Positions 44,363 through 63,742 of a DNA stretch of 64,000 nucleotides are shown here, one piece after another. Made by a program: the position numbers and the translations under genes. Under the pieces are notes generated by a model, which worked only from the letters and a program-made list of their open reading frames with translations, did no database searches and was not told the origin of the DNA. This DNA comes from Sphingopyxis terrae subsp. terrae NBRC 15098 (GTDB lineage: Bacteria; Pseudomonadota; Alphaproteobacteria; Sphingomonadales; Sphingomonadaceae), in the NCBI RefSeq assembly GCF_001610975.1, contig NZ_CP013342.1, forward strand, positions 1,240,001-1,304,000, given 5' to 3'. Every line of letters begins with the position of its first letter. The stretch's first letter is position 1.

Positions 44363-44379
44363 TGGAGCGGGCGAAGGGA
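44363..44379 (-). repeat. Attachment-site remnant: last 17 nt of tRNA-Gly
   Basis: Read on the minus strand, TCCCTTCGCCCGCTCCA equals the 3' acceptor end of tRNA-Gly(GCC) including CCA. It is also the outer tip of the left inverted-repeat arm. Chromosomal sequence lies to its left. Confidence 0.75.
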
Positions 44380-44693
44380 CCGCATCGGCTGCGATGATCT
44401 GGGGATCATCCTGACCATCCTCGGACGCCTGTTTCGAGCGTATTTCGATGGTTGTTGATGATGCGGCATCATCGATCTGGTCAGCGTGTTGGTCGGTCAT
44501 TTCGTGATCGTCGCACAGATCGCGGAGGCGTCAACGAGTTCGATTGGGCGATGATCGGCGGACGCTCTTGGTCGTTAATTTCTTCGCCTGCCGATTGTGC
44601 TATACGATTCGTGCGACCCAGAGGGGGGTTCACCTTGCACATCGTGTTCGCCCCTTGCCTTATGGCGGTGCCTGTAGGGGTGCCGCCATATTG
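44380..44693. other. Arm-end noncoding segment with two palindromes and a hairpin
   Basis: No convincing gene. GATGATC, 4 nt, GATCATC lies at 44393-44410 and the perfect 17-mer GATGATGC/G/GCATCATC at 44457-44473. A TGGCGG...CCGCCA stem at about 44664-44689 just follows the zinc-ribbon gene stop (on its strand) and may end that transcript. The same elements lie in mirror positions at 51765-52078. Confidence 0.6.
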
Positions 44694-44891
44694 CTATGTG
44701 TCGGGCTGATGTGACCATCGATGTCGGCATTCGAGGCATTTTCGATCTGGATCATCGACCATCACGACGCAGCCGCCGAGCGCGACCTCTTTCTGCTTTT
44801 CCTTTCGGAGCAGTCTCTTGCTCGGGAAGCCGTATATGATGGGGACGCCCGTCTTCTGCGTGCACTTGGGGCAGGTGAAGCGTGTGATCAT
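44694..44891 (-). CDS. Small zinc-ribbon protein of the arm cassette (left copy)
   Basis: 65 aa with FTCPKC near the N terminus and CLECRHRW near the C terminus, giving a four-cysteine zinc ribbon. The body PIIYGFPSKRLL ... GGCVVMVDDPDRK matches a widespread family of small zinc-ribbon proteins of unknown function. Overlaps the upstream 109-aa gene by ATGA, so it is the last gene of a three-gene operon. Confidence 0.75.
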   Translation of the reverse strand: MITRFTCPKCTQKTGVPIIYGFPSKRLLRKEKQKEVALGGCVVMVDDPDRKCLECRHRWSHQPDT

Positions 44892-45217
44892 GGGGCCAAT
44901 GCGCGTGCCTGCTTCGCCATTGTAGAAGGAACGATCTTCCCCACAAGGAAGGCTTCACGATCCTTCTGAGGGATGAGATGCCAGTTCCACACAATGCTTC
45001 GGATATCATGGAACATGACATTAAGAGCGTTCTTGTCTCGATCTGCCATTCGATACCATCTCACGGCTCTTTTAAACTCGGCGAGAACGGGATCGAGCTT
45101 TTCATCACCAATGATCACGCGATTGATAATTGTACGGATGACAGCCCGTCGGGCTTCGACGCTGTTTCGCCACTCCGATAGCTGGAACACATCTCCCGCA
45201 TTCAACGAGGCCCCCAT
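44888..45217 (-). CDS. 109-aa protein of the recombinase cassette (left copy)
   Basis: Unrecognised 109-aa protein. SVEARRAVIRTIINRVIIGD is reminiscent of a C-terminal segment of large serine recombinases (weak, by eye). The rest is helical with several Trp. It starts 11 bp after the recombinase stop and overlaps the zinc-ribbon gene. It could assist or regulate the recombinase (inference from the operon). Confidence 0.7.
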   Translation of the reverse strand: MGASLNAGDVFQLSEWRNSVEARRAVIRTIINRVIIGDEKLDPVLAEFKRAVRWYRMADRDKNALNVMFHDIRSIVWNWHLIPQKDREAFLVGKIVPSTMAKQARALAP

Positions 45218-45228
45218 TCTAACTCCCC

Positions 45229-45771
45229 TTAAGCTGCCAGCGCGCGATAGACGGATGCCCGACCTATGCCCATGGTCTTCGCGATCTGCGACGGCCCCAG
45301 ACCGTCATCTCGAAGCGTCTTCACGCGGGTGACATCGACAGTCGGCTTCCGTCCTTTGTATTTTCCTTCGACCTTGGCCTTGGCGATGCCTTCGCGTTGC
45401 CGTTCGAGGCGGATGTCGTTTTCGAAGGCCGCGACAGCACCGAGGATCGCGAGCATCAATCGCCCCGTCGAGCTATCGGTATCGACGCCGCTCTGGTTCA
45501 GGCATCGGAACGCGACCTTCTTCTCGGTCAGCTTCTCGATAATCCGATGAAGGTCGCCGACGCTCCGTGCCAGACGGTCGAGCCGTGTCACGACAAGGGT
45601 ATCGCCTTCCCGAACGAAGTCGATGGCTCGGGCCAATCCTTCGCGGTCGTGGGTCGAACGTCCTGACACCTTCTCAGCGAACATCTTCTCGCACCCTGCA
45701 TCGGTCAGGGCTTCATGCTGGATGTCGAGCGACTGTCCTGTCGAGCTTACACGCGCATAGCCAACGAGCAT
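45229..45771 (-). CDS. Small serine recombinase (resolvase/invertase), intact copy
   Basis: 180 aa. GYARVSSTGQSLDIQ carries the catalytic serine, at position 9 or 10. FVREGDTLVVTRLDRLARS contains the conserved Arg pair, and the long E-helix (LGAVAAFENDIRLERQREGIAKAK) leads to a C-terminal helix-turn-helix (GPSQIAKTMGIGRASVYRAL). Length is normal for Tn3-type resolvases and DNA invertases. First gene of the arm operon. The dyads at 45781-45861 just upstream could be its recombination site or operator. Confidence 0.93.
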   Translation of the reverse strand: MLVGYARVSSTGQSLDIQHEALTDAGCEKMFAEKVSGRSTHDREGLARAIDFVREGDTLVVTRLDRLARSVGDLHRIIEKLTEKKVAFRCLNQSGVDTDSSTGRLMLAILGAVAAFENDIRLERQREGIAKAKVEGKYKGRKPTVDVTRVKTLRDDGLGPSQIAKTMGIGRASVYRALAA

Positions 45772-45780
45772 CGGGCCTCC

Positions 45781-45861
45781 TGTCTCAATGAGATTTAGAC
45801 CCAGACTCTCACATGTCCCAGATTTGTCGAACTTATTCTAATGAGACGGTCGATCCGTCTC
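45781..45861. promoter_or_regulatory. Possible res/promoter region of the intact recombinase
   Basis: Upstream of the recombinase start, CTCAATGAG (45784-45792) and the inverted elements GTCTCA (45782) and TGAGAC (45842) are found, plus a 7-bp dyad GAGACGG/CCGTCTC with 5-nt centre at 45843-45861. Spaced dyads upstream of the gene are typical of res sites. The block is unique to the left side, not present beside the right arm. Confidence 0.45.
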
Positions 45862-45969
45862 GCAACATCGTCCCGTCAGGGTTTAGCTATCCGGCACAAG
45901 GGGGGCAAGGTATGGGCCTGATACGTTAATGCTGATATGAGAGAGTGCGATACTTTTCGGAAGGACGAT

Positions 45970-46269
45970 ATGACCGACGGCCCACTCGACGGTAACAAAG
46001 GGGGCTTCTTTGAGAGCCAAAAGGGCATTTCTGATCGTCGTGCGGCACGAGGTATCCCGCCCGATGTAGGCCGAAACACGAACTCTTCCGATGGTGGCAA
46101 TGCCACAGGCGGTGGCGGGAACCTCATTCCTATGTTGCTGTTCGGTGCATTGTGGCTCCTTTGGAAGGTGGTGGAACTCCTATTCCCGATCCTGCTTGCG
46201 CTGGCACGCGAGGCTGCCAAGCTCACAGGTCAGCTAATTATGGCGGCCATGAGTCGCAAACGGCGGTGA
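45970..46269 (+). CDS. Small hydrophobic protein, unknown
   Basis: 99 aa; Gly/Asp-rich hydrophilic first half, then one long hydrophobic segment (LIPMLLFGALWLLWKVVELLFPILLALA) and a basic tail. Predicted inner-membrane protein. The start at 45970 has AAGGA at good spacing. Seven bases separate it from the next gene. No family recognised. Confidence 0.6.
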   Translation: MTDGPLDGNKGGFFESQKGISDRRAARGIPPDVGRNTNSSDGGNATGGGGNLIPMLLFGALWLLWKVVELLFPILLALAREAAKLTGQLIMAAMSRKRR

Positions 46270-46276
46270 AGGACCC

Positions 46277-46912
46277 ATGGATATAAAGGAAATCGTTGCC
46301 TTCTGGCGGGGTCAGCAACAGATCGATTTACAGGGCGAATGGACGCATCGTCTTGATAGAACGGTGCTCGAAACTGGCCCTCACAGTTTCAACCTTGATC
46401 ATCCAGTTTGCCCGTATATTGGCGATGTGATCAATGCGCCGGTTATCATACTCAATGCAAACGCAGGCTACGATGCCGATTTGACGCCGACCGAATTTCC
46501 CGACGCTTCTACCGTCGATGCATATATAGCGCGCGTTGATGAACCTTCAGGGTCTGATTGGTCGTTCGTGTCTCAATACTACGACGACACTAACTACGGT
46601 CACCTTATCGCGTCGGGAAAGGCCGTTGCCGTAAATGCATGCGCCTATCGAAGCCCGAAGATCAGCAATGAGAAGGACAACCGCCGGATTATCCCTCGCC
46701 TGCCATCGGCGATCTTTACTCGTCGATGGCTGCTCGAAGCCGTGCTGCCAATGGCGGCCAAGGGAGAGAGGTTGGTGGTCGCCAATCGAAGTGGCCTATG
46801 GAAGCTCGACACTGCATCAAATGCAAACGGATTGGTCCGCGATGCCTGCCCAGTTAGCCCACGCATTACCGGCGTAGCTCTGTCAGCAATGAATGATTTC
46901 CTCTCTCGCTAA
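46277..46912 (+). CDS. Unknown 211-aa protein
   Basis: Soluble protein with an AAGGA site before the ATG. PVIILNANAGYDADL and NACAYRSPKIS, then LPSAIFTRRWLLEAVLP and LVVANRSGLWKL, give an alpha/beta pattern loosely like the uracil-DNA-glycosylase superfamily, but no diagnostic catalytic residue can be assigned. Function left open. Confidence 0.6.
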   Translation: MDIKEIVAFWRGQQQIDLQGEWTHRLDRTVLETGPHSFNLDHPVCPYIGDVINAPVIILNANAGYDADLTPTEFPDASTVDAYIARVDEPSGSDWSFVSQYYDDTNYGHLIASGKAVAVNACAYRSPKISNEKDNRRIIPRLPSAIFTRRWLLEAVLPMAAKGERLVVANRSGLWKLDTASNANGLVRDACPVSPRITGVALSAMNDFLSR

Positions 46913-46993
46913 TAGCTTCCACTCATTTTCAAAATGAGTTAGCACGGTTTAATAGGCCGCCACGCGCCAATTGTAGCGCAACAAAGTCAAGCC

Positions 46994-47533
46994 ATGAGCG
47001 GTGCAGTGAGGACTATGGATCGCTATTCCAAGGCCGTTTTCGCAAGTGCAATTTTCGCGGCCGTTATCCTCATTTTCTATTTTTACTTTCGCGGTTCGAC
47101 CGGAGGCGAGGTTGCGGAAACTGCCATCAAAGATAGCGCTCCCACCCAAATGCCCTCCGCACTCCCGCCGCCGATGGCAAAGCCAAAAGCGCGAGAACCC
47201 GACGAACCAGATAAGCAAAAGGTTACCGCGAGCGCGAAGTGGCTCGCAGGCTGGTGGTCTGAAGACGGATTCTGCGAGGGCGATGCTGGCGAAACATTTT
47301 TAGAAAATGGGGATTGGGGACGATGGGGCGTGGACGGGAATTGGAAATTGGATGGCTACGTCTTAACGGTCACCGAGACGACTCTCGTAGCCGACACTGA
47401 ATCGGGCGAACCCGAGCCGATTAATCCACCCGTCGTTTCAAGCGGCACCATATCAAACATCACCGCGAACAGCTTCGATCTTAAGAAAGGCGGTAGCGTC
47501 TTACGAATGGCTCGCTGCCCTGAGGGAGAGTAG
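46994..47533 (+). CDS. Unknown single-pass membrane protein
   Basis: 179 aa with one N-terminal membrane helix (AVFASAIFAAVILIFYFYF), a Pro/Lys-rich linker and a C-terminal beta-rich domain of about 95 residues (WLAGWWSEDGFCEGD ... SGTISNITANSFDL) with two cysteines. Probably anchored with the domain outside the cytoplasm. An ATG at 47015 is an alternative start. The next gene starts 2 bp later. Confidence 0.6.
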   Translation: MSGAVRTMDRYSKAVFASAIFAAVILIFYFYFRGSTGGEVAETAIKDSAPTQMPSALPPPMAKPKAREPDEPDKQKVTASAKWLAGWWSEDGFCEGDAGETFLENGDWGRWGVDGNWKLDGYVLTVTETTLVADTESGEPEPINPPVVSSGTISNITANSFDLKKGGSVLRMARCPEGE

Positions 47534-47535
47534 AC

Positions 47536-48015
47536 GTGCGAACCGCAGGAGCAGTTCTGGTCGCGTTGGCTGCGCTACTGCTAATAATCGCGGTATCCTA
47601 TGAGACGACCGTCACAAGCTTCGATTCTGATTTTTTGCAAAGAGAGACGTATAATCTGGGCAAGCTTCAAACCCAGATAATGTTTTTACATGCAGGACTC
47701 GGCTTTCTTATCACAGGCTGCATTCTGATCGGTTTCGGAGCAGTTGCCGAGCGGATGGACGCACTGAATCTGCCAAGATTTAAACAGGAAATCGACGACT
47801 CGGATCAGATATTCCCCAACGCCGAAGTTATTGAATCCACCCCCATCGCTCCACAAGAAATCGTTTCAGAACCAGAGATCTCTACCGTTGAAGCGCCTGA
47901 TGAAGAGATCACTTCGACGGTAGATCAACGCCGGAAATCACTCGCGGTCGTGGCCATTGCAGCTATATTTGCAATCGTAGCCTTTATCATTTTGAAGAAT
48001 GAAAATCTGATATGA
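47536..48015 (+). CDS. Unknown multi-pass membrane protein
   Basis: 159 aa with three hydrophobic segments: residues about 5-20, 50-68 and 138-154. An acidic loop (EIVSEPEISTVEAPDEEI) lies before the last. GTG start directly after the preceding gene, so the two are probably cotranscribed. No family recognised. Confidence 0.6.
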   Translation: MRTAGAVLVALAALLLIIAVSYETTVTSFDSDFLQRETYNLGKLQTQIMFLHAGLGFLITGCILIGFGAVAERMDALNLPRFKQEIDDSDQIFPNAEVIESTPIAPQEIVSEPEISTVEAPDEEITSTVDQRRKSLAVVAIAAIFAIVAFIILKNENLI

Positions 48016-48088
48016 GGGTGCCGACAAGATGCTGCCACGACAAGCTGTCGAACAAGGGTCGGTAGTGTCCGTTTATCGTCGTTGACGG

Positions 48089-48595
48089 CTAAAATGGGCT
48101 TTGCACGATTTCCACACCACACTTCCGAAGCAAGTCCACCTCTTCAGCGAAGCAAGCATTGGCAGCGAGAGACGCGCCCGACCCTCCTGCCGTCATCCGC
48201 TCGCATGCCGCTTTAATCTGGCCGTAGCTTTGGACCTCGCCCGCCGCTCGCGCAGCTTGGCAATCGGAAGCGCTCGGCATCACCTCAGTTTCGGCTGCGA
48301 CGGTGCTGGCAGGCTCCTCCGCTGAGCGACTGAACGGACCTTTATCGGTCGCGATGTTGCCCCAGATTGCCACAGAAGCAAGAATGGCCGATCCGCCCGC
48401 CAGCGCCAAAGCGTTGTTCCTATGTATCGTCTGCTTGCGTTCGGGATCGCCTGCCTTCTTGAACTCGGTGTAGGCGAAATATGCTCCCACGGCAGCGAGA
48501 GGTAGGCCGATCCAGAGCACGGCTACCCATAGCGCGTAGATGCCTATCGCCAGCAGAATAAACCCGATGCATCCGAGGTTTGAATTGTCCCGCAT
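48089..48595 (-). CDS. Unknown membrane protein divergent from the XRE regulator
   Basis: 168 aa starting at ATG 48595 after GGGGCAGTTAGGA. It has two adjacent membrane helices (IGFILLAIGIYALWVAVL and LPLAAVGAYFAY), a further hydrophobic stretch (ALALAGGSAILASVAIWG) and a C-terminal Cys-containing domain. Longer in-frame reading across the operator was rejected. It lies 18 bp from the palindromic operator. Confidence 0.6.
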   Translation of the reverse strand: MRDNSNLGCIGFILLAIGIYALWVAVLWIGLPLAAVGAYFAYTEFKKAGDPERKQTIHRNNALALAGGSAILASVAIWGNIATDKGPFSRSAEEPASTVAAETEVMPSASDCQAARAAGEVQSYGQIKAACERMTAGGSGASLAANACFAEEVDLLRKCGVEIVQSPF

Positions 48596-48613
48596 TCCTA
48601 ACTGCCCCCTCAA

Positions 48614-48638
48614 TCCATATGCGATTATCGCATATGGA
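48614..48638. promoter_or_regulatory. 25-bp perfect palindrome, probable XRE operator
   Basis: TCCATATGCGAT, one central T, ATCGCATATGGA. It sits between the divergent starts at 48595 (minus) and 48665 (plus), so it can control both. No other match was noticed in the window. Confidence 0.8.
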
Positions 48639-48664
48639 CGTTGCGCATTTACCGCAACCGCGAG

Positions 48665-48919
48665 ATGCGAAAATCCGTCTACAGTGAAGAAGGCAGGCTG
48701 CTCGCGGAGAGCCTGACGGAGGCAAGGAAGCGGGCTGGGATGCATCAGGCTGATGTCGCGGCAAAGATGGGCAGCGACCAAACCGTCATCTCGAACATCG
48801 AACGCGGGCACAGGCGGATCGACGCTATCGAATTCTTCGAATTTGCGAACGCAGTGGATTGCGATCCAGTCGAATTATATCGATCTATCGTCGAGAAGTG
48901 GCGTGGCCTTCCTCGCTAA
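48665..48919 (+). CDS. XRE-family helix-turn-helix regulator
   Basis: 84 aa with a Cro/CI-type HTH: LTEARKRAGMHQADVAAKMGSDQTVISNIERGHRRIDAIEFFEFANAV. Start at ATG 48665; a TTG 24 bp upstream is possible but would put the operator against the start. Probably represses its own and the divergent gene. Confidence 0.88.
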   Translation: MRKSVYSEEGRLLAESLTEARKRAGMHQADVAAKMGSDQTVISNIERGHRRIDAIEFFEFANAVDCDPVELYRSIVEKWRGLPR

Positions 48920-48979
48920 AGGGGCCTGATAACCAGTTCATTTTATTGACGGATTTCTCGTTCGTGATAGCTCCCTTCT

Positions 48980-49483
48980 ATGGGCGCTGAACTCACAAAC
49001 CAAATCAAATCTACGAAAGCTGGGACGAACCTGAAAGTCGAGCAGTTTCAGTCTTGGCTGAGCGGAAACGGCCAGATTTCCGAGCTTCAGCGCTATCAGA
49101 ATATTGGATGGGACGTTGATGCAACAATCTACGAGCATCCGCATGCGCCCCTGTTTTGGCGGTATATAACCGACAACCCGTTCGGTCAGCGCCATCATAT
49201 TGTGACCTTCAGGACTGGTCGCATGGTGAGGGATATATGGCGTGATCTCGCTCGCGCTGGATCGCCGTTGCTCCCGCTGCATTTTCATTCGATCAACTCA
49301 GTGCCTGAAGAGATGTGGCTGAGCTTTCAGATGCATCGGCAGGGCCTGCATCCCTACCCATTCTGGAAGGGGAAAACCTGCCACGAGTTGGGTATCGAAG
49401 TGCTGATCGATGATGCGACGATGGATGTGTGGGCGGGATGCAGCGAGCATTGCATCGACTATTTTCATCCCGACATGCTGTAA
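48980..49483 (+). CDS. HAD-like phosphatase-fold protein
   Basis: 167 aa with the order of HAD motifs: I in GWDVDATIYEHP, II in IVTFRTG, III lysine in WKGKTCHELG, IV in VLIDDAT. These suggest a phosphohydrolase or nucleotidase-type active site. Many bases nearby are A/T. The specific substrate is unknown. Located just before the hairpin-rich noncoding stretch. Confidence 0.65.
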   Translation: MGAELTNQIKSTKAGTNLKVEQFQSWLSGNGQISELQRYQNIGWDVDATIYEHPHAPLFWRYITDNPFGQRHHIVTFRTGRMVRDIWRDLARAGSPLLPLHFHSINSVPEEMWLSFQMHRQGLHPYPFWKGKTCHELGIEVLIDDATMDVWAGCSEHCIDYFHPDML

Positions 49484-50422
49484 GTTGAGTGGCGACGGTC
49501 AGCCGAGCAATCATCCAGTTCACTAATGACTACTGCTCGCGCGTCCCGCGCACGAGACATTTAATAATATAAAGAGATGCCAATGGAGCATATTTCGCTA
49601 TTTAACTTCTCATTTTTATATAAATATTCACAGTATTACAGAGACTAAATACTTTTGAGAAAAATAAATACAGTTTTATATGGAATGCGGAATTGATCCC
49701 ATGATATATAGTAAGACATAATTTGTTCAGGGCTTATCTGCCGATGTGGCCCGCATCAAAACAAGCTGAACGGCTTGCTGCCGCATCAGTGTATTGGGAG
49801 AGCAACCCGTCCGCGCTTATGGCGATGCGGATGCCGGTCAGGAGACCGACTAAAAAGAAGTCATAAAAAAGAGGAGAGCCATGTCTTTAGCTGACAACTC
49901 TCCACTGTATGTGCGTCAAAGGTAACAGGCGGCGTGCATGCAGCGCTTCATTCAATTGATAACCGTTGCGAGCCGAAAGGCTCAGGAGTGCGCACCAATA
50001 CAGGGTCTCGGGCAACCACCTGTTAAGCTATAAAGGCCGTAAGGTGCGAGCCAATCCATCGATACTCACGGAAATGTGAAATCATCACTCCCCCTCCAAG
50101 GTAGCCGCCGATAACCCGCTTGGAATCGTTTGCTTGTTTTTCGTAAACACGCGCCCCCGTGTTGGGGAAGGCTGCCTTGGAGGGGGGATTAGTGTGTCAT
50201 CTCAATCTACGGAAACGTGAACAGAAAGATTTATTAATGGATTTGCCTATCTGAGTTTTCTATTTCTTCGTTGAATGAATCGCTGGATTTCGTGAGTGAA
50301 AACGAACGAATCCAATGCGATTAGGAGGGCTGATTTATCAGCCCGACTCCTGAAGATTAATTGGTGATCAATCCGAAGAGGTAATCACCGAGCTATCACC
50401 ACTCGCGTATCCCGCGAAATCT
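49484..50422. ncRNA. Gene-free 0.94-kb stretch; 49834-50352 is a candidate structured RNA
   Basis: No protein-like frame. 49550-49730 is very A+T-rich and could hold a promoter. From 49834 on there is a run of hairpins: CGGTC/AGGA/GACCG; GGAGAG...CTCTCC (49872-49902); GAGCC/GAAA/GGCTC (49969-49982); CGCACC...GGTGCG (about 49991-50047) enclosing ACAGG...CCTGT; a TCAC...GTGA loop (50066); a long stem CTCCCCCTCCAAGGTAGCC with GGCTGCCTTGGAGGGGGG (about 50087-50187); AGGAGGGCTGA/TTTA/TCAGCC...CTCCT (about 50322-50352). Strand unknown. No reverse transcriptase is near. Confidence 0.4.
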
Positions 50423-50698
50423 TCAATGATCCCATTCCTCATGGCCGAGTGGTTTATGGTTCAACTCGGCTCTAATCACTCGCCAGCGCGGGAGATGCAG
50501 GTCCATCAGTGAAATAAAGCGCTCCCCATGTGAGCGCTCGATAAAATGCGCGATCTCGTGACAAACCAGATAATCGATGCAAGCGGGCGGCTTCTTCGCC
50601 AATTCCAAATTAAGCCAAATGCGGTTCGCCGACGCATTGCATGTGCCCCACTTGGTGCGCATCCGCTTTATGCCTAACTCGGGGATCGAAAGGCCGTA
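50423..50698 (-). pseudogene. C-terminal half of a YgjP-like (DUF45) metallopeptidase, truncated
   Basis: About 90 residues: KRMRTKWGTCNASANRIWLNLEL, then the zinc motif HEIAHFIERSHGERF and PLGHEEWDH, which is the C-terminal half of YgjP/DUF45 proteins, normally about 230 aa. The N-terminal half is replaced by the right inverted-repeat arm at 50699, so the gene is broken. Relatives often neighbour type I restriction systems (family knowledge). Confidence 0.8.
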
Positions 50699-51229
50699 TA
50701 TGCGCGTGTAAGCTCGACAGGACAGTCGCTCGACATCCAGCATGAAGCCCTGACCGATGCAGGGTGCGAGAAGATGTTCGCTGAGAAGGTGTCAGGACGT
50801 TCGACCCACGACCGCGAAGGATTGGCCCGAGCCATCGACTTCGTTCGGGAAGGCGATACCCTTGTCGTGACACGGCTCGACCGTCTGGCACGGAGCGTCG
50901 GCGACCTTCATCGGATTATCGAGAAGCTGACCGAGAAGAAGGTCGCGTTCCGATGCCTGAACCAGAGCGGCGTCGATACCGATAGCTCGACGGGGCGATT
51001 GATGCTCGCGATCCTCGGTGCTGTCGCGGCCTTCGAAAACGACATCCGCCTCGAACGGCAACGCGAAGGCATCGCCAAGGCCAAGGTCGAAGGAAAATAC
51101 AAAGGACGGAAGCCGACTGTCGATGTCACCCGCGTGAAGACGCTTCGAGATGACGGTCTGGGGCCGTCGCAGATCGCGAAGACCATGGGCATAGGTCGGG
51201 CATCCGTCTATCGCGCGCTGGCAGCTTAA
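50699..51229 (+). pseudogene. Serine recombinase, right copy, missing N-terminal start
   Basis: Identical to the left copy from Tyr5 onward, but the first four codons and the promoter are absent. Upstream in frame there is a stop at 50675 with no ATG, GTG or TTG between. The first usable ATG (50774) would give 151 aa lacking the catalytic serine, so it is probably inactive or a DNA-binding fragment. Confidence 0.85.
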
Positions 51230-51240
51230 GGGGAGTTAGA

Positions 51241-51570
51241 ATGGGGGCCTCGTTGAATGCGGGAGATGTGTTCCAGCTATCGGAGTGGCGAAACAGCGTC
51301 GAAGCCCGACGGGCTGTCATCCGTACAATTATCAATCGCGTGATCATTGGTGATGAAAAGCTCGATCCCGTTCTCGCCGAGTTTAAAAGAGCCGTGAGAT
51401 GGTATCGAATGGCAGATCGAGACAAGAACGCTCTTAATGTCATGTTCCATGATATCCGAAGCATTGTGTGGAACTGGCATCTCATCCCTCAGAAGGATCG
51501 TGAAGCCTTCCTTGTGGGGAAGATCGTTCCTTCTACAATGGCGAAGCAGGCACGCGCATTGGCCCCATGA
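51241..51570 (+). CDS. 109-aa protein of the recombinase cassette (right copy)
   Basis: Identical to the left copy at 44888-45217 and still overlapping the zinc-ribbon gene by ATGA. Because the right recombinase has lost its promoter region, expression would depend on readthrough or an internal promoter. Confidence 0.7.
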   Translation: MGASLNAGDVFQLSEWRNSVEARRAVIRTIINRVIIGDEKLDPVLAEFKRAVRWYRMADRDKNALNVMFHDIRSIVWNWHLIPQKDREAFLVGKIVPSTMAKQARALAP

Positions 51571-51764
51571 TCACACGCTTCACCTGCCCCAAGTGCACGC
51601 AGAAGACGGGCGTCCCCATCATATACGGCTTCCCGAGCAAGAGACTGCTCCGAAAGGAAAAGCAGAAAGAGGTCGCGCTCGGCGGCTGCGTCGTGATGGT
51701 CGATGATCCAGATCGAAAATGCCTCGAATGCCGACATCGATGGTCACATCAGCCCGACACATAG
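51567..51764 (+). CDS. Small zinc-ribbon protein (right copy)
   Basis: Identical to 44694-44891: 65 aa, CPKC and CLEC zinc pairs, PIIYGFPSKRLL and GGCVVMVDDPD core. Followed by the same palindromes and hairpin up to 52078. Confidence 0.75.
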   Translation: MITRFTCPKCTQKTGVPIIYGFPSKRLLRKEKQKEVALGGCVVMVDDPDRKCLECRHRWSHQPDT

Positions 51765-52078
51765 CAATATGGCGGCACCCCTACAGGCACCGCCATAAGG
51801 CAAGGGGCGAACACGATGTGCAAGGTGAACCCCCCTCTGGGTCGCACGAATCGTATAGCACAATCGGCAGGCGAAGAAATTAACGACCAAGAGCGTCCGC
51901 CGATCATCGCCCAATCGAACTCGTTGACGCCTCCGCGATCTGTGCGACGATCACGAAATGACCGACCAACACGCTGACCAGATCGATGATGCCGCATCAT
52001 CAACAACCATCGAAATACGCTCGAAACAGGCGTCCGAGGATGGTCAGGATGATCCCCAGATCATCGCAGCCGATGCGG

Positions 52079-52215
52079 TCCCTTCGCCCGCTCCAGAAAT
52101 TCAGAAATCGACGGAAAACTGCGACAGACCGTCCTCGCAACGGTCCCGTGCGAGCGTCCTTCCCACAAAGCTGCTACACAATGATGTCGCGGAACGTCCC
52201 TCAAACCTGCGGAAA
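52079..52215. repeat. 137-bp repeat of the integrase leader, inverted relative to 54913-55049
   Basis: Contains the tRNA-Gly 17-mer (52079-52095), then about 120 bp identical to the sequence between the att site and the frameshifted integrase, in opposite orientation. Position i pairs with 107128 minus i. It includes one copy of the arm-type repeat (read as GCTGCTACACAA). The PIN-like gene begins 8 bp after it. Confidence 0.9.
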
Positions 52216-53461: not shown

Positions 53462-54861
53462 TCAGACCGCATATAGATGGGAGAAATCGATGGTGGGGAA
53501 GCGAACGGCGTTCAAGGCTTCGGCCAATGCGGACGCCCGATATCCGTTGCCATAAATGTCAGCTACTACCGATCCACTTCCCTCGGTTGTCCAACCGCCC
53601 AAAATCAGAGCGAGGTCGCGGCCAACCTTCGCATCTCGGAGGCCATCGCGGAAATTGTGGCGAAAGCTGTGGAAGCAGGTGAGTGGGGCGGACGCCTCGG
53701 CTGTAACCAAAAAGCGTGAGAACCAGCGAGAGAAGCTCGTCGAGCGGTAGCCAAGATGCCCCAGCGGAAGCTCGGGAAAGAGGCTAACCTCTCCGTGCAG
53801 CCGTTGGGCCTCGACGAACGCGAGGAAGCCGAACCGTATCAACTCATTGTGAATCGGAACGATCCGTTCGCTCGCAGCGGTCTTCACTCGCTTCTGTTGG
53901 CCAGCGTCGCTCAATCCCGCCATGACCCGAAGGCAATGCACGCCTTCGATGTGCTGGATGTCGGCAACTTCCAGTTGGCAGATTTCATTGAGCCGAAGCC
54001 CGCTGAACAGCGCAATCAACGGCACCCAAAACCGCGCTCGACGAGGACGCTGATCGCCAACAACGGCATAGTGATACTCGTCGTTCCGACAGCCCGTGAA
54101 AATTGGCGCGCTGAAGATCGCCCGCAACTGATCGGTGGAGAACGGGTGCCGCTTGTCGCGCTTTCTCACGGGGTCACGCAGCTTGAGGCCGCGAACAGGA
54201 TTCCGCTCGATGTAACCTTCGTCGAGCGCCCAGTTCATGACGCCGCCAAAGCGGTTCACATACGCGTTGAGATTCGCGGTGTTGATAAGGCGCCTTTCGT
54301 TTTGCTTCTTTGCGGCGGAGACGGCTTCGCGGATCGACATGTTGGGAAAGCGCTTGTCTGCGTGCTGCGGCATAGACCGCAGCAGATCGACGAACTCGCG
54401 GCACCCCTCTCGTGAGATGTCTGTAATCGGCGTATCGCCACCGAAGACCTCTACCACCCACTTGCGGGTCGTCACATGAGCGACCGCCGTTCGCTTCGAC
54501 CAGTTGTGCTTCGGGTCGGCGATGAATTGGTCATATACCTCACTGATCGAGCGCGTGCGGGCAGGCTTCGTTTCGTGGCTCGACACGGAATGATCGACGG
54601 ACGCCAAAACGGTGGGGAGACCGTCAAAGGACGGTGGGGCAGGCGTCACGATAAGCGTAGGATCAATTGATTGACCGAGACTGGACCGCGCTCGCTCGAA
54701 CTCGGCTTCTATGCCACGCCATGGAGACGGCGAGCCGCAAGCTTTCGGCTATCAGTGTCCAGCGAGCGCCAGATTTCACGACAACCGAGCGCCGTCACCA
54801 AATCGGTCGGAACACGCCTTCGATAATATAACCGTCCGTTCCGATCGAACAGGCCAACCAC
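53462..54861 (-). pseudogene. Tyrosine-recombinase integrase with N-terminal DUF6538-like domain, frameshifted
   Basis: The N-terminal part (VVGLFDRNGRLYYRRRVPTDL ...) runs into a TAG near 54711. The remainder resumes in another frame (IEAEFERARSSL, then the rest through 53462). Insertion of one base would join them, so a single-base deletion, or a sequencing error, splits the gene. The catalytic domain shows LFSGLRLNEICQL, HSFRHNFRDGL and a C-terminal GYRAS region where the Tyr is GNGYRA. The start is unclear (GTG 54861 proposed). Confidence 0.8.
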
Positions 54862-54865: not shown

Positions 54866-54958
54866 TTGTGTAGCAGCTTTGTGTAGCAGCCAGATCGATC
54901 ATTTTCTGAGGATTTCCGCAGGTTTGAGGGACGTTCCGCGACATCATTGTGTAGCAGC
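54866..54958. repeat. Three direct repeats TTGTGTAGCAGC, probable integrase arm-type sites
   Basis: Exact copies at 54866-54877, 54879-54890 and 54947-54958, all in one orientation, between the integrase start and the tRNA-derived core at 55033. This layout is that of the P-arm of a phage-type attachment site. Confidence 0.7.
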
Positions 54959-55049
54959 TTTGTGGGAAGGACGCTCGCACGGGACCGTTGCGAGGACGGT
55001 CTGTCGCAGTTTTCCGTCGATTTCTGAATTTCTGGAGCGGGCGAAGGGA
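54913..55049. repeat. 137-bp att-leader repeat (partner of 52079-52215)
   Basis: Runs from the integrase leader into the tRNA-Gly fragment. Apparently identical to the inverted copy at 52079-52215. The two enclose the PIN-like gene and the integrase. Confidence 0.9.
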
Positions 55050-55077
55050 TTCGAACCCTCGACCCCAACCTTGGCAA
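55033..55077 (-). repeat. att site: 3' half of tRNA-Gly(GCC), 45 nt
   Basis: Minus strand reads the anticodon loop TTGCCAA, then stem, variable loop, T-arm GAGGG/TTCGAAT/CCCTT and acceptor CGCCCGC-TCCA. No 5' half adjoins it, so it is not a gene. Exact direct repeat of 58103-58147. Confidence 0.9.
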
Positions 55078-55108
55078 TATTCATCTCTTTTATAACTACT
55101 GACGTGAT

Positions 55109-55170
55109 GGCGTGGACGGCCCCTGCACCCGCGTAGCTGTGCAATGATGCGGCCGTTGTAGGTCCACGCC
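55109..55170 (+). other. IS110-type upstream noncoding hairpin (possible bridge-RNA relic)
   Basis: GGCGTGGAC (55109-55117) and GTCCACGCC (55162-55170) form a 9-bp stem around 44 nt just before the IS110-type transposase start. In IS110 elements this region encodes the guide (bridge) RNA. That this copy is such a relic is inference. Confidence 0.45.
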
Positions 55171-55183
55171 TAGGAGTCGTCAT

Positions 55184-55405
55184 ATGAAGCAGGAGGTTGC
55201 CACCGTCGGATTAGATCTGGCGAAGAACGTTTTTCAGGTACATGCGATCGGTAGCGACGGCGCCGTCCTGGTGCGGCGGAAGTTGAGGCGCGCGGAGGTG
55301 ATCGGCTTCTTCACCGACCTTCCAGGCTGCGTGGTCGGCATGGAAGCGTGCGCATCCGCGCACCATTGGGCTCGCGAGCTGATCGCATTCGGCGATGCGG
55401 TGTGA
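55184..55405 (+). pseudogene. IS110-family transposase, N-terminal fragment
   Basis: 73 residues. TVGLDLAKNVFQVHAIG carries the first Asp of the DEDD site and VVGMEACASAHHWAREL the Glu, both typical of IS110/IS1111 recombinases. It then stops, lacking the rest of about 340 residues. The break point joins directly to an unrelated gene fragment. Confidence 0.85.
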
Positions 55406-55548
55406 GGACCAAAAAAGTCGAGCGCCGGGATTTTAACCAAGCCATGGGAGAAGGGTTTGACTTCCAGCGGGCTGGCGAACTCTGGCTGCGCGGGCGACTT
55501 GTCGCTCGAGCCATCGCCGCCGAACAAGCGCTGGAAGAACCCCTTCAT
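55406..55548 (-). pseudogene. N-terminal fragment of a third gene of the abiE operon
   Basis: About 47 residues beginning MKGFFQRLFGGDGSSDKSP and reaching LVKIPALDFFGP before the IS110 remnant replaces the rest. Its ATG overlaps the abiEii stop (ATGA), so it was translationally coupled to the toxin. Identity unknown. Confidence 0.55.
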
Positions 55549-56591
55549 GCGGCCGCGTTCAAGGAATTCTGCAATTCTGCAATCGCCTCGACGACCGCAT
55601 CAAAGGGCGGCGGCGCGCCGAAGATCATCGTGTTCATGGCGCGATAGTCCTGGCGCAAGGCATCCGTCATCCCTCCCTCCGGGCACAAGGCAAATGTCGG
55701 GGCCTGCGCGGCGGCGAGATCGAAGTCCGGGCGATTGAAGAACATGCGGGCATGGGCAACGCAGTCCTCGCCAAGCGCGCGGTTTGCAAGGGCGGCTTGG
55801 CCGATCTCCGATTGGACCAGGCGGAACAGGTCGTAATAGTGCCGAGAGATGCGCTGGCCGTCGCCCCGCAGCTGCCCTCGGATTTCGAACCATCGCCTCA
55901 GGCCATGAAGGATGACGACCTTGTCCCAGAAGGTTCGCTCGGCATCGACCACAGTCACGCCCGGCACGGCGAGGTCGAGGTCGACGGCGTCAGCGTCGAC
56001 ATAGGGCACAATAGTTCGGACCGAATTAGGATCGAGCGCCGACTTTGCGCCTGATTCGATCTTCACCGACTTGGCGATGTAGGCATCCTCGGGAGTGATG
56101 CTGGGATATACCAGGAGCAAGGTCTGGCCATCCCGGGCGTCGGCCTCGACCCGAATTGACTGCACTTCAAGGCCTGCGCGCGCGCAGGTTTCGGCGCAGA
56201 TTTGCGCGAGGCGCGCCTTCATTAGTCCGTTGATATGGGTTTCGCAGGCGTCCTTGATTTCATCGAGCGCGGCTTCCCGCTTCTTGCGGCTCAGTGCAGC
56301 CAATCCCGCGATGGTCGCGGGCACGCCGAGATCATCGCGGAAGACCGTTACGTCGATGTCTTCGGAGAACCGCTCGATCAGCCCAAACCCCTTCGACAGG
56401 GAGGTTCCGCCCTTGAACAGCAGGCGGGGTCCGTCCTCGATTCCGTTGAACAACGCATCAAGGGTCCAGCAGACCCAGAAATCCTTTTCGACGTTTTGCG
56501 GGGTCGTGCCGAGGCGTTGCGCAGTCGCCGTATAGAGCCCCGTGCGGGTGGCCGTGTCAGCGCGCAGCACTTCATCGAAGGCGGAGTTCAT
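55545..56591 (-). CDS. abiEii: AbiEii toxin (nucleotidyltransferase)
   Basis: 348 aa of the AbiEii/AbiGii family. LLFKGGTSLSKGFGLIERFSEDIDVTVF holds the GG-S and D-x-D nucleotidyltransferase core. The C-terminal helical part includes TFWDKVVILHGLRR. Type IV toxin that transfers nucleotides to targets such as tRNA ends in studied relatives. Coupled to abiEi by ATGA. Confidence 0.92.
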   Translation of the reverse strand: MNSAFDEVLRADTATRTGLYTATAQRLGTTPQNVEKDFWVCWTLDALFNGIEDGPRLLFKGGTSLSKGFGLIERFSEDIDVTVFRDDLGVPATIAGLAALSRKKREAALDEIKDACETHINGLMKARLAQICAETCARAGLEVQSIRVEADARDGQTLLLVYPSITPEDAYIAKSVKIESGAKSALDPNSVRTIVPYVDADAVDLDLAVPGVTVVDAERTFWDKVVILHGLRRWFEIRGQLRGDGQRISRHYYDLFRLVQSEIGQAALANRALGEDCVAHARMFFNRPDFDLAAAQAPTFALCPEGGMTDALRQDYRAMNTMIFGAPPPFDAVVEAIAELQNSLNAAA

Positions 56592-57241
56592 GCGCTGGGC
56601 ACTTCAGAGACGAGCGGACGGAGCAGGTCCTGCATCCAGGCCGGGAGCGTTGGCAGCCCCTCGGCAAGATCAGCGCGCAAAGCTGCGCCGTGGGTGGGGT
56701 TGCCGAGAAGGGCGGCAAGTCGCTCACGCCATTGTCTCGTGTCGTCGTCCGTCGACATTGTATCGCGCAGCCAGTGCAGCGCCTGGACGATCCTCATGGC
56801 CGGGCGTCCCGCCCAATAGAGTTTGCTTGCCGCGGTCGTTTTGAATTCGATGGTTAGGTTGCCGAGCTTGATCGACTTGGGCCGCGCTTCGCTGTGCACG
56901 ACGATTTTCGCCGGTACGGCATTGGTAAAGCCGAGATCGTTGGCGGCCGTCATTCCGTCGACCAGGACACGGATCTGATCGCGCCGCGCGACGGCGTCGA
57001 TGACCGCTCGCGGATCGGGAGCATTGTCCTGCCGGGTCAGGCTGTTGAACTGCGGTTTGTCATAGAGGCCGCGATCGATCCGGCGCAGCTCGCCCCATTT
57101 GACCAAACGCTGGAGGGTCTTGTCGACCGCATCGCGACCGGCAAGGTCGAGGAAGTCGGCCGGTGTCCAGACAGTGTTCGCCGTCCCTCGGCTTACACGA
57201 TCGAGGATTTGCGCTTTCAGTCCGGTCGGGATTTTGTCCAT
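56588..57241 (-). CDS. abiEi: AbiEi-type antitoxin and transcriptional repressor (DUF6088-like)
   Basis: 217 aa. The N-terminal winged-helix region (ANTVWTPADFLDLAGRDAVDKTLQRLVKWGELRRIDRGLYD) binds DNA, and the C-terminal domain carries antitoxicity in relatives. Start proposed at ATG 57241; an ATG at 57271 in the same frame is possible. Two identically spaced inverted repeats lie at and upstream of the start, matching negative autoregulation described for AbiEi. Confidence 0.9.
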   Translation of the reverse strand: MDKIPTGLKAQILDRVSRGTANTVWTPADFLDLAGRDAVDKTLQRLVKWGELRRIDRGLYDKPQFNSLTRQDNAPDPRAVIDAVARRDQIRVLVDGMTAANDLGFTNAVPAKIVVHSEARPKSIKLGNLTIEFKTTAASKLYWAGRPAMRIVQALHWLRDTMSTDDDTRQWRERLAALLGNPTHGAALRADLAEGLPTLPAWMQDLLRPLVSEVPSA

Positions 57242-57316
57242 GTCCGAAATAAGTAGCATAACTTCGGACATTATCAAAATCGCTATTGTCCGAAAAATGT
57301 AGACGGATTTCGGACG
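57241..57316. promoter_or_regulatory. Two tandem AbiEi operators
   Basis: TGTCCGAA-N14-TTCGGACA at 57241-57270 and TGTCCGAA-N14-TTCGGACG at 57287-57316. Both have the same 14-bp spacing, with centres 46 bp apart. Confidence 0.85.
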
Positions 57317-58082
<766 letters not shown>

Positions 58083-58102
58083 TAGGTGTTTAATGAAAAA
58101 AC

Positions 58103-58147
58103 TGGAGCGGGCGAAGGGATTCGAACCCTCGACCCCAACCTTGGCAA
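58103..58147 (-). repeat. att site: 3' half of tRNA-Gly(GCC), second copy
   Basis: Identical to 55033-55077 (one extra C shared on the left). Followed by unrelated sequence, so not a gene. The intact integrase starts 180 bp to the right, making this the left end of the third element. Confidence 0.9.
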
Positions 58148-58326
58148 GAAATTACTGCAAATACCCCAGAGCTTCTTTTTCTACGCCAAGGTACGAAAAT
58201 CCAAGCATTTGTTGACTTCGGCCTACGATAATTTATCCTAGCCCTACCCTGCGAAGCGGTGATTTTCTATTACGTCCTCATTACTTTTCGAATCGGCCAC
58301 CCTCGCGTAATATGATGGAGGAACTT

Positions 58327-59595
58327 GTGGCGCTTGCGAAGCTCAATAAGCGGACGGTCGATGCGCTGGCTGCACCAGCGACAGGCCAGGCATTTCTTTG
58401 GGATACCGAGATCAAAGGTTTCGGTGTCCGTGTCGGCGCAACCGGGACGAAAACCTTCGTCATCCAGTATATGAATGAGGAAGGCCGGGTTCGGCGAGTG
58501 AAGATCGGGCGCTTCGGCGTGATGACGGTCGAGCAAGCCCGCGAGCTCGCGAAGATTCAGTTGGGCAAGGTCGCCTCTGGCGAAGATCCCGCAGAGGAGT
58601 CGCGCCGGGTCCGGAAGGATCTCAATGTCGCCGAGATGTGCGAATGGTATCTCGTCGAAGCGCGAGCCGGCCGCATTCTTGGACGGAAGAACCGCCCGAT
58701 CAAGGACACCTCGCTCAACATGGATGAGAGCCGCATCCTGACGCATATCATCCCGCTGATGGGCAAACGCCTCGTGCGGAAGCTGACGATCGCCGACGTC
58801 GAGGCAATGCAAAATGACATTGCAACCGGTCAGACCCGAAAGCCTCCTTCGGGCGGGCGCGGCGGCCGCCCGACGGGCGGTGCCGGCGTTGCCGGGAGGA
58901 GCCTCGGCACCCTCCAGGCCATCCTAGGCCATGCAAAGCACAAGGGACTGATTGCGGAACATCCTACGAAGGGCGCGAAGAAGCTCGCGACCAAGAAAAG
59001 GACCCGGCGTCTCAGCATCGCCGAGATCGAGCTGCTGGGTCGGGCGATCGGCCGGGCCGAACTGGGTTCCGAGAACCCCGTTGCGCTCGCAATTGTCAGG
59101 ACGCTCCTTCTGACCGGCTATCGGCGCGAAGAGGCGCAGGCGCTGCAGCGGCAGTGGGTTAACCCCATGGGCGGCTACGTCGCGTTCCCCGACACGAAGA
59201 GCGATGCACAATTTCGGGCGATCGGACCCGAGGCGATCAAGATCGTCGTCGCTCAACCCGAAATAGCCGGCTGCCCCTACGTCTTTCCCGCGTCGAATGG
59301 CGAAGGCCCGTTTACCGCCGTCAGCGACTGCTTGGCCCGACTATGCCGCTCGGCCGGCATTGAGGGCGTAACGCCGCATACGCTGCGCCACACCTTCGGC
59401 AGCATGGCGGGCGAACTCGGCTTCTCCGAGCTCACGATCCGCGCGATGCTAGGCCACGCGTCGCAAAGTGTGACGCAGGACTATGTTCATATCGATGAAG
59501 CCGTGAAGCTGGCGGTCAGCCGCACTTCGGACGAGATCGCAAAACATCTTGAGACTGGCGTGCGGAAGGCGGCAAAGATGAAGTTCGCCGCCTGA
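58327..59595 (+). CDS. Tyrosine-recombinase integrase (P4-type)
   Basis: 422 aa. KLNKRTVDAL and FLWDTEIKGFGVRVGATGTK form the N-terminal arm-binding domain. Catalytic residues are Arg in LLTGYRREEAQAL, HTLRHTFGS and the Tyr in QSVTQDYVHID. The GTG at 58327 was chosen because GGAGG sits at ideal distance; upstream ATGs at 58312 and 58315 lie too close to that site. Expected to act at tRNA-Gly. The element extends right. Confidence 0.93.
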   Translation: MALAKLNKRTVDALAAPATGQAFLWDTEIKGFGVRVGATGTKTFVIQYMNEEGRVRRVKIGRFGVMTVEQARELAKIQLGKVASGEDPAEESRRVRKDLNVAEMCEWYLVEARAGRILGRKNRPIKDTSLNMDESRILTHIIPLMGKRLVRKLTIADVEAMQNDIATGQTRKPPSGGRGGRPTGGAGVAGRSLGTLQAILGHAKHKGLIAEHPTKGAKKLATKKRTRRLSIAEIELLGRAIGRAELGSENPVALAIVRTLLLTGYRREEAQALQRQWVNPMGGYVAFPDTKSDAQFRAIGPEAIKIVVAQPEIAGCPYVFPASNGEGPFTAVSDCLARLCRSAGIEGVTPHTLRHTFGSMAGELGFSELTIRAMLGHASQSVTQDYVHIDEAVKLAVSRTSDEIAKHLETGVRKAAKMKFAA

Positions 59596-60522
59596 TCAAG
59601 GCGGCGAACCGTCGCGCGCCTCCATTTGCTCGAGAAGCTGCACTCCGATGATTTCCAAATCGGACTTGCCGATATCGGCAACTCTCCGGATCGAGAGGTC
59701 ATGCTTTAGTATGGCAAGGTCCATCATCAGATCGGGCTCGCCATTCTCCTTCACGTAAGTGGGAACCAGAATGAACGAGCCACCCGCGGGATAGTTATCG
59801 AGAAAGAACCTCAGATTCGTGTCGGCGGCAGGTTCGAGCAGCTTGAGGCGGCTCGGCATGCTCACCAGCGTACCAGCGAAATCCCCTGGCTCAGTTCCCG
59901 CCATCAATAGCACCGCATAGTGGGACGGGGGCCGACCAGGTAGTTCGCGCAAGATCGCGATGTGGATAGCCCCTTTGGCATCTCGTGCGCCGAACCGTTC
60001 GCGCCAACGCTCGAAAATTTGGCGTCCCGCCTCGCGATCCTCAAAGTGCAATCCGACGATCGGGAGATCATGCTGCAGACCGAGCATCACGCCGATCCAG
60101 CGGGCCTGCTCCCATTGCGGAATGTCCAAGATCGAGCGCACTTCGACGCTGCGGTGATCGCCAGTCGCGTATCGCTCGCTGATTGTTTCTTCTTCGGGAT
60201 CAGCCTCTGGCACCCTTACAATTACCGGCCGGTCGGCCTTCGGCGGAAACCGCTCGAGCGATAGCTCGTTCCAATCCGTCAGTCGCGACGCTGGACTGTT
60301 CATCGCCCGGATGCGGCTGTTCGAACTCGCGACTGCGGCGCTGACGCGCTCAAGGAGTGATTCTTCCCGAAAAAGCTTCTCCAGAGATATTTTTTGCCGG
60401 TCGGCGAGTGAGGTCGCGACGAGCATCAGCGTTGAGAGAAGCAGGAATTGGCTATGGGTTCCGCTCTCACCGAGATGATCGGCGGGTGTCGATCCGGCAG
60501 GCCAATGAAGTTTGGCGCGCAT
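59596..60522 (-). CDS. Unknown protein paired with the STAND NTPase
   Basis: About 308 aa if started at ATG 60522. Starts at 60426 or 60303 are possible. The conserved-looking part covers DRPVIVRVPEADPEEETI, WIGVMLGLQHDLPIVGLHFED and a C-terminal NYPAGGSFILVPTYVKENGEPDL. No family recognised, no membrane segment. It is divergent from, and perhaps overlapping, the STAND gene, which suggests a functional pair. Confidence 0.6.
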   Translation of the reverse strand: MRAKLHWPAGSTPADHLGESGTHSQFLLLSTLMLVATSLADRQKISLEKLFREESLLERVSAAVASSNSRIRAMNSPASRLTDWNELSLERFPPKADRPVIVRVPEADPEEETISERYATGDHRSVEVRSILDIPQWEQARWIGVMLGLQHDLPIVGLHFEDREAGRQIFERWRERFGARDAKGAIHIAILRELPGRPPSHYAVLLMAGTEPGDFAGTLVSMPSRLKLLEPAADTNLRFFLDNYPAGGSFILVPTYVKENGEPDLMMDLAILKHDLSIRRVADIGKSDLEIIGVQLLEQMEARDGSPP

Positions 60523-63015: not shown

Positions 63016-63025
63016 TCGCGAGCGG

Positions 63026-63742
63026 CTAGAGTCGGTCGTAGATGGCGTTCGGCAGAAGTTTCATCAGGCCAGCGACGAGCCACCAGCGTTTGGTGACATA
63101 GGCATGAGACTTACGGGCGCGGATGGCGCCGTAGATCTGCTTCGCCGCCTTTTCAGGCGAAGCAACCCAGAAGAGTCCGTCACCCTTCGCCATCGCGGTG
63201 TCGACGAAGCCGGGCCGCACGTCGGTCGTTGCAATCGGCAGGCCCCGGCGCGCCATGTTCTGGCGTAGCGCCTCCATATAGTTGGAGACGAAGGCCTTGG
63301 ACGCATTGTAGGCAGGCGCGTCGCCGCTTCCCCGCAATCCCGCGATCGACGAAATGGCCACCAGATGCCCCGTGCCTTGGGCGATGAAGTGCTGCATGCC
63401 GATATTGGCCGCGGCCGCGAAACCTTCGACATTCACCGCGATGGTCTCGCGTTCCGCCTCCCAGACAAGATCGGCATTTATGTGGCCGACCCCGGCACTG
63501 ATCACCAGCAAGTCGAGCCCGCCAAGCCGCTCGATCAGGGCGGCGAGTCCGCGTTGCATCGCGGTCGTGTCGGCCACGTCGAACGCCTCGTAGATTATCG
63601 AACCGGAAGAATTGCCAGCGAGATTGGCGAGCAGGTCGCGGCGCCGACTGGTGACGCCAACCGAATAGCCATGATGCGAGAGCAGCATCGCCAGCTCTCG
63701 GCCGATCCCTGAACTCGCGCCGACTATGATCGCTTTGTTCAC
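63026..63742 (-). CDS. Short-chain dehydrogenase/reductase
   Basis: 238 aa with cofactor motif VGASSGIG, NAG-equivalent ISAGVGH, catalytic Ser in ISSIAG and YNASK (Tyr-x3-Lys). The GTG at 63742 precedes the first strand. An upstream ATG at 63841 would overlap the neighbouring frame. The C-terminal hydrophobic tail (WWLVAGLMKLLP) suggests membrane association. Substrate unknown. Confidence 0.88.
   Translation of the reverse strand: MNKAIIVGASSGIGRELAMLLSHHGYSVGVTSRRRDLLANLAGNSSGSIIYEAFDVADTTAMQRGLAALIERLGGLDLLVISAGVGHINADLVWEAERETIAVNVEGFAAAANIGMQHFIAQGTGHLVAISSIAGLRGSGDAPAYNASKAFVSNYMEALRQNMARRGLPIATTDVRPGFVDTAMAKGDGLFWVASPEKAAKQIYGAIRARKSHAYVTKRWWLVAGLMKLLPNAIYDRL

Follow-up and report, generated by a model that had tools for sequence, protein, structure and literature searches.

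A tRNA-Gly island of Sphingopyxis terrae with a probable second, inverted attachment site

Integrating islands are usually pictured with one attachment site (attP), and site-specific inversion switches such as Hin and Rci with a recombinase gene near inverted sites. A different arrangement is found in the yeast 2-micron plasmid, whose FRT sites lie head-to-head; recombination between them during replication is thought to start amplification, according to the accessible parts of PMC6594588 and PMC3147054. Here we describe an element in a stretch of 64,000 nucleotides (nt) from Sphingopyxis terrae subsp. terrae NBRC 15098 (contig NZ_CP013342.1, positions 1,240,001 to 1,304,000; this whole stretch is called the window) that carries a long inverted repeat. 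Judging from its sequence, this repeat is probably the P' half of an attachment site that is present in two inverted copies within one tRNA-targeting island.

Inverted repeats and tRNA cores in the window

The two arms of the repeat (44363-45759 and 50699-52095), each 1397 nt long, are exact reverse complements of each other, with 0 mismatches and no indels, and are separated by a spacer of 4939 nt (segment X, 45760-50698). An earlier note on this DNA had described a near-perfect 1.4-kb inverted repeat around a 4.9-kb segment, with paired positions summing to 96458 without indels. Alignment of the arms bears out the repeat, the enclosed segment and the constant sum, while "near-perfect" is too weak a term, and the many substitutions that would have spoken against the note are absent. 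The note also placed recombinase, 109-residue and zinc-ribbon genes in both arms; all three are present in each, but the right-hand recombinase lacks its start and first four codons. Only the left copy is complete because arm 1 stops at 45759 and the left gene starts at 45771. Nor does the structure end at 52095, as the note had it, since a second perfect inverted pair of 137 nt (52079-52215 with 54913-55049) overlaps the outer 17 nt of the right arm and continues beyond it. The longest inverted pair elsewhere in the window measures 46 nt at 74% identity (1-44000 and 55000-64000 searched separately, 53 kb), and a repeat of 1397 nt is thus far beyond chance. No copies of the arm were found elsewhere in the organism's own genome (2 contigs), and a comparison of arm DNA with plasmids gave 8 records with matches of 65-74% covering at most 21% of the query.

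A 17-nt core matching the 3' end of tRNA-Gly(GCC) occurs at 44363-44379, in inverted orientation at 52079-52095, and again at 55033-55049 and 58103-58119. As in tRNA islands, the cores at the two ends of the element (44363-44379 and 55033-55049) are tRNA 3' ends in direct orientation, and an integrase gene (53462-54649), apparently frameshifted, adjoins one end (54913-55049). The 46-nt 3' half of tRNA-Gly is found at 55032-55077 and at 58102-58147, in neither case with a 5' half; no tRNA gene was found within the window, and an intact tRNA-Gly(GCC) lies 88 kb to the right. The core copies and the 3' halves without a 5' half lead us to read the element as a 10.7-kb island, from attL at 44363 to attR at 55049, within an array of islands. 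Its order is attL core, P' arm, X, inverted P' arm, inverted core, inverted P, cargo, integrase, P, core and tRNA 3' half. Read on the minus strand from 52215 to 50699, the sequence runs P, core, P', which is the layout expected at a circle junction, here inverted inside the element. On sequence grounds, the earlier note missed that the repeat forms the P' side of a tRNA attachment site present twice, and that a second inverted pair surrounds a tyrosine integrase, which, rather than the serine recombinase, fits the tRNA site.

Excision by recombination of attL with attR would produce a circle with two P-core-P' sites in opposite orientation, and these would split it into X and Y, the latter comprising integrase and cargo. 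Such a circle would be a 2-micron-like dumbbell. Recombination between the repeats, whether catalysed by host enzymes, by the integrase acting on the cores or by the serine recombinase, would keep the copies alike and could invert X or Y relative to each other. The window's own copy of the element is probably no longer self-mobile, since the integrase frame appears shifted (its match to G000 begins at residue 52, with 1 TGA in frame) and the right-arm recombinase has no start.

Repeats and cargo in related elements

A scan of genome contigs gave 40 integrase relatives, namely 24 that are full-length (matched at the N-terminus and at least 40% identical), 5 that are truncated and 11 that are distant. 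One full-length locus with 43 bases upstream (L095) was dropped as untestable, leaving 23, and a P-side inverted pair is present in 22 of these. None of the 5 truncated and none of the 11 distant relatives showed one; for L109 and L122, truncated loci that lack the N-terminus, the P region may be situated in another place than expected, and the flanks of some distant loci (L120, L126, L129) are short. In the 22 positives one copy sits at the 5' end of the integrase gene and the other downstream, with or without cargo between them. Identity is 100% in 17, above 99% in 3, 88% in L107 and 72% in L115, the last two being weak positives together with L093 (37 nt). Six of the 22 (L097, L103, L105, L116, L117, L118) have their second copy at the end of a contig or no more than 3 nt from it, and there the length of the repeat may be assembly overlap. 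Copy 1 starts no more than 1 nt from the T-loop/T-stem boundary of a Leu, Gly or Val tRNA in 13 loci (L094, L096, L098, L099, L100, L102, L104, L106, L107, L108, L113, L114, L115). A scan of 22 full-length loci showed a tRNA at every one but L101; these 21 tRNAs (Leu 9, Gly 8, Val 4) all adjoin the 5' end of the integrase gene.

Of 397 genomes from the window's order, 19 (some of them also represented among the 40 loci) have strong matches to the integrase family. In the stretches read from 11 of these genomes there are repeats of 144-372 nt (G432, G344, G255, G399) or of 36 and 39 nt (G342, G473), and no repeat in G213, G394, G198, G166 and G413. Plasmid matches to the integrase reach at most 37.5% identity among the 40 listed of 56 records. 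Viral contigs hold 15 relatives with at most 40% identity, and the two that were examined (L133, L134) have no inverted repeat. One contig of a metagenome-assembled genome (L103, 7945 nt) both starts and ends with the P repeat (130 nt, 99.2%) and has several open reading frames (ORFs) between. Elsewhere in G001 (C1 2667184-2668921, or L215 13184-14921) another integrase of 422 residues with Arm-DNA-bind_3 and Phage_integrase domains lies beside tRNA-Thr(CGT), between the two copies of a perfect 115-nt inverted repeat in which tRNA 3' sequence is included. This second integrase family may thus share the trait; at a strict cut-off, and with no positive control, a search with the tRNA-Thr integrase matched 0 of 396.

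We compared the two P copies within each of 18 elements over the matched stretch only, a choice that favours identity (L093, L103 and L115-L118 were left out). There are 0 mismatches in 15 elements, one in two, and 16 in L107. Between elements the P repeats differ at 6 to 72 positions (11 element pairs), and in 8 of the 11 pairs the differences are shared by both copies because each element's copies are identical; L101 and L102 (Sphingomonas aracearum), for instance, differ at 6 positions, the same in both copies. Identity within elements together with divergence between them therefore points to homogenisation of the P copies within each element. L107 is chimeric: its IR1 is nearer to L106 (16 versus 27 mismatches), its IR2 nearer to L108 (15 versus 24), and its P' resembles that of L106. 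Besides the core, inner copies retain certain repeated motifs (CTGCTACGG or CTACACAA, for example), which resemble arm-type sites of the integrase.

Duplicated P' arms are also seen outside the window. In Sphingomonas phyllosphaerae FA2 (G127, the genome of L096) the arms measure 2419 nt with 1 difference and the P repeat 175 nt, in a 22.7-kb element with an attL and a tRNA-Leu. Erythrobacter sp. WG (G481, the genome of L114) has arms of 1048 nt at 98.1%, a P repeat of 399 nt and tRNA-Gly(TCC), and Sphingobium arseniciresistens (G131, the genome of L101) has arms of 374 nt at 99.5%, a P repeat of 161 nt, a left core that looks degenerate and no adjoining tRNA. Pairs of contigs in G475 and G477 have 127 and 95 nt (P' plus core) in common before they diverge, as collapsed arms would, and a 207-nt pair at 99.0% in G001 is read as a remnant of P' arms. 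A Resolvase-family gene lies inside the duplicated arms of the window, G127 and G481. From these readings, P' arms accompany attL in the window, G127 and G481, less surely in G131, G475 and G477, and not in every member. Beyond the inner repeat of L096, L098, L099 and L104, P' contains a second core-like stretch (CCTCTTCTGGGACTCGAAC) about 90 nt from the core. G001 has a Gly-type core-like stretch near its Leu-type core, which hints at target switching.

The orientation of blocks differs between elements. By tblastx the X block, which encodes an MmeI-like enzyme, helicase-like and other proteins, is reversed relative to the integrase in G127 as compared with G001 and G481, and the integrase is reversed relative to arm 1 and X in G131 as compared with G127. 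The earlier note had proposed inversion of the segment by homologous recombination; orientation relative to the integrase does vary, but no clean arm-to-arm inversion is seen, and the differences are compatible with rearrangement between repeats. The X block could also have been acquired independently in either orientation, and no near-identical element pairs differing by inversion alone were found. For cargo, ten proteins were scanned, one per element. Five have PADLOC matches, namely a DRT reverse transcriptase (L104), OLD/GajA (L115), PDC-S31 (L108, L093) and PDC-S64 (L094); two have Pfam matches only (HNH at its cut-off in L114, DUF3800 in L113), and three, including that of the window, match neither PADLOC nor Pfam. 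The 257-residue cargo protein of G001 has no PADLOC match.

Features of the window and neighbouring islands

The coordinates of the element are collected in Table 1. Among 80 genomes of the genus the 109-residue protein matched only the window's own, and it has no relative in viral contigs. AlphaFold models of the 409-residue cargo protein and of a 503-residue relative of the P-loop-type protein of G127 had a mean predicted local distance difference test score of 38 and 40 and were not used.

Table 1. Features of the island and its surroundings (positions in the window)
Feature	Position	Strand	Remarks
attL core, 17 nt, tRNA-Gly 3' end	44363..44379	+	identical to 55033-55049, inverted at 52079-52095
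Arm 1, read as P' side of attachment site	44363..45759	+	1397-nt inverted repeat, 100%
Zinc-ribbon-like ORF of arm 1, 65 residues	44694..44891	-	zinc-ribbon matches below cut-off only
109-residue ORF of arm 1	44888..45217	-	no Pfam, NCBIfam or PHROG match
Serine recombinase, 180 residues, complete; first 12 nt in X	45229..45771	-	Pfam Resolvase 2.5e-41
Segment X, 4939 nt; Xre-type helix-turn-helix ORF, mostly ORFs without assignment	45760..50698	.	
YgjP-like metallopeptidase, 3' part, cut at inner end of arm 2	50423..50743	-	Pfam YgjP-like 3.3e-31, profile positions 120-206 of 207
Arm 2, inverted copy of arm 1	50699..52095	-	
Serine recombinase copy without start codon and first four codons	50699..51229	+	
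109-residue ORF, second copy	51241..51570	+	
Zinc-ribbon-like ORF, second copy	51567..51764	+	
Internal inverted core	52079..52095	-	
Inner copy IR2, inverted core and P arm; with arm 2, inverted P-core-P'	52079..52215	-	100% to 54913-55049
Cargo gene of Y, 409 residues	52223..53452	+	no match at cut-offs in Pfam, PADLOC, NCBIfam or PHROGs
Tyrosine integrase, main open frame	53462..54649	-	45% to intact G001 homologue; PHROG integrase 1.2e-26
Integrase N-terminal part in other frame, start approximate	54709..54861	-	gene appears frameshifted
Outer copy IR1, P arm and core, attR	54913..55049	+	
tRNA-Gly(GCC) 3' half, no 5' half	55032..55077	-	46 nt identical to intact gene in L060
Second tRNA-Gly 3' half, bounding the neighbouring island	58102..58147	-	

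To the left of the element lie genes for an S41 peptidase and an iron-type alcohol dehydrogenase, and in G003 a homologue of the S41 peptidase gene adjoins another tRNA-Gly 3' fragment. On the right, a 3-kb island (55049-58119) occupies the space between the two tRNA-Gly 3' halves. Its AbiEii (6.5e-39) and DUF6088 proteins look like a toxin-antitoxin pair, and its 73-residue ORF, which we take to resemble the start of an IS110 transposase, has no Pfam match. Adjoining the second tRNA-Gly fragment is a second tyrosine integrase (58312-59595, Arm-DNA-bind_3) with a 68% DNA match in G058, there too after a family-type P arm and a tRNA fragment. No inverted repeats of at least 30 nt were found within window positions 55000-64000.

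Alternatives and comparison with known systems

Several observations weigh against the duplicated attachment site as we read it. One full-length relative, L110, has no P repeat. At every one of the 21 loci next to a tRNA, the integrase is on the side of the tRNA; this uniform position runs counter to free inversion of Y and argues against equal use of the two sites. Among draft assemblies, no inverted P' arm was found in the stretches read of G128, G129, G130 and G132, and no third mismatch-free core in G126, G129, G130, G132 and G133; in G128 a third core lies at a contig start with a flank unlike the P' beside its inner repeat. The window's inner copy keeps one of the three CTGCTACACAA motifs of the outer side. 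Reversal of X is not clean, as a gene of 492-505 residues lies near arm 1 in both G127 and G001, and neither the circle nor a second orientation has been seen directly. Frequent flipping of Y as the main function is rejected, given that 21 of 21 integrases are on the tRNA side. Long identical arms alone need not invert often either, because the accessible portion of PMC3147054 describes inversion between IS50 copies in Tn5 as an extremely rare event in E. coli.

These points have to be set beside what other explanations would have to account for. The earlier note had considered a recent inverted duplication, and a one-off event in the window's strain, functionless and kept identical by youth or gene conversion, would agree with the 0 mismatches in 1397 nt and with arm 2 cutting both the YgjP-like gene and the recombinase, as a rearrangement breakpoint would. 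We regard it as improbable because the two-tier layout recurs with different arms in G127, G481 and G131, P-side pairs are present in 22 of 23 testable full-length relatives, and P repeats are alike within 17 of 18 elements and differ between elements. The same recurrence in independent genomes, two of which (G127, G481) have arms that are not quite identical, and the assembly of the window's genome in 2 contigs make the assembly artefact named in the earlier note extremely unlikely, even though the second P copy is at or within 3 nt of a contig end in 6 of 22 positives. A composite transposon or insertion sequence pair was rejected, since the arm ORFs (one Resolvase-family and two unassigned) include no transposase and the outer ends are tRNA cores. 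A role of the serine recombinase as an invertase that recognises sites in the arms, which would exist for its switch, is suggested by the Resolvase-family gene within the arms of the window, G127 and G481; we think it quite unlikely, as the copy in arm 2 of the window has no start, the arms of G131 measure only 374 nt, and P-side pairs also occur where no arms are seen.

The remaining alternatives concern what a duplicated site might do. The main functional rival is cassette exchange, which we think less likely than not: inverted identical sites around integrase and cargo would let Y be swapped between elements, by analogy with engineered recombinase-mediated cassette exchange. Cargo does vary among relatives (DRT, OLD/GajA-like, PDC-S31, PDC-S64, HNH, DUF3800, unassigned), and the L107 chimera fits such swapping, but single-core exchange or homologous recombination could give the same outcome and cargo orientation is mixed. 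Somewhat more doubtful is a 2-micron-like amplification, in which integrase recombination at the inverted sites during replication of the circle would start double rolling-circle replication and the serine recombinase might resolve multimers. The head-to-head sites inside inverted repeats, the tyrosine recombinase in one unique region and the 2-micron parallel (as far as the accessible text of PMC6594588 and PMC3147054 goes) argue for it, while scans of ten G127 proteins and of window proteins recognised no replication gene and the listed plasmid matches to the integrase are as distant as given above. Integron attC sites and the attP of CTX phage are analogies for a folded single-strand site, in which the inverted copies would pair into a double-stranded attP in single-stranded transfer DNA. 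Perfect pairing of core and P, and in the window also of P', would give a complete duplex site, but diverged pairs exist (L107, L115) and no relaxase or single-strand phage protein was found among the proteins scanned, and we have little belief in this explanation. A duplicated, inverted attachment site in a tRNA-targeting island stays our preferred reading of the repeat.

We found no description of such an element in the literature searched, which covered few subscription journals and is weak evidence of novelty. The resemblance to tRNA-targeted islands with tyrosine integrases (Islander; PMC4383910, in its accessible part) is close: the core is a tRNA 3' end with the integrase beside the tRNA, attL and attR are in direct repeat, and neighbouring islands share the same tRNA. 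Unlike those islands, the present element has a second P-core-P' site, inverted, inside the island, with integrase and cargo between inverted P arms and a P' arm of up to 2.4 kb duplicated. Inversion switches (PsrA; PMC7096588, accessible part) likewise have a recombinase gene near inverted sites; here, however, the sites are tRNA-type attachment sites in repeats of about 100 nt to kilobases, and the integrase is on the tRNA side in 21 of 21 tRNA-adjacent relatives. The orientation in G131, which has no adjoining tRNA, differs. Thermococcus elements also combine tyrosine integrases with integrated elements linked to inversion between repeated DNA, but in the portion of PMC8371274 available the partners are separate elements or segments of the chromosome and not a pair of sites within a single element.

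That a second inverted site is alike within elements and occurs in 22 of the 23 full-length members that could be tested implies either selection or a mechanism of rebuilding it. Because draft contigs end at the repeats in 6 of 22 positives, short-read surveys would fail to show the layout. The closest parallel in architecture is the yeast 2-micron plasmid, which has two inverted repeats, each with a site for an element-encoded tyrosine recombinase (PMC6594588 and PMC3147054, accessible parts). If circularised at their cores, the elements of the window, G127, G481 and G131 would likewise be divided by inverted sites into two unique regions, and the integrase is encoded in one of these (Y). Unlike the yeast plasmid, the element is bacterial, is integrated at tRNA genes and carries cargo, and its free circle, circle isomers and amplification are putative. 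It is an unlikely proposal, offered by analogy, that these are bacterial counterparts of the 2-micron plasmid, that is, defence-carrying tRNA islands with two head-to-head attP sites whose integrase would couple inversion to replication-based amplification and cargo exchange. For 2-micron amplification the family may offer a testable parallel in bacteria, or else it may be a natural device for exchanging cassettes of defence genes.

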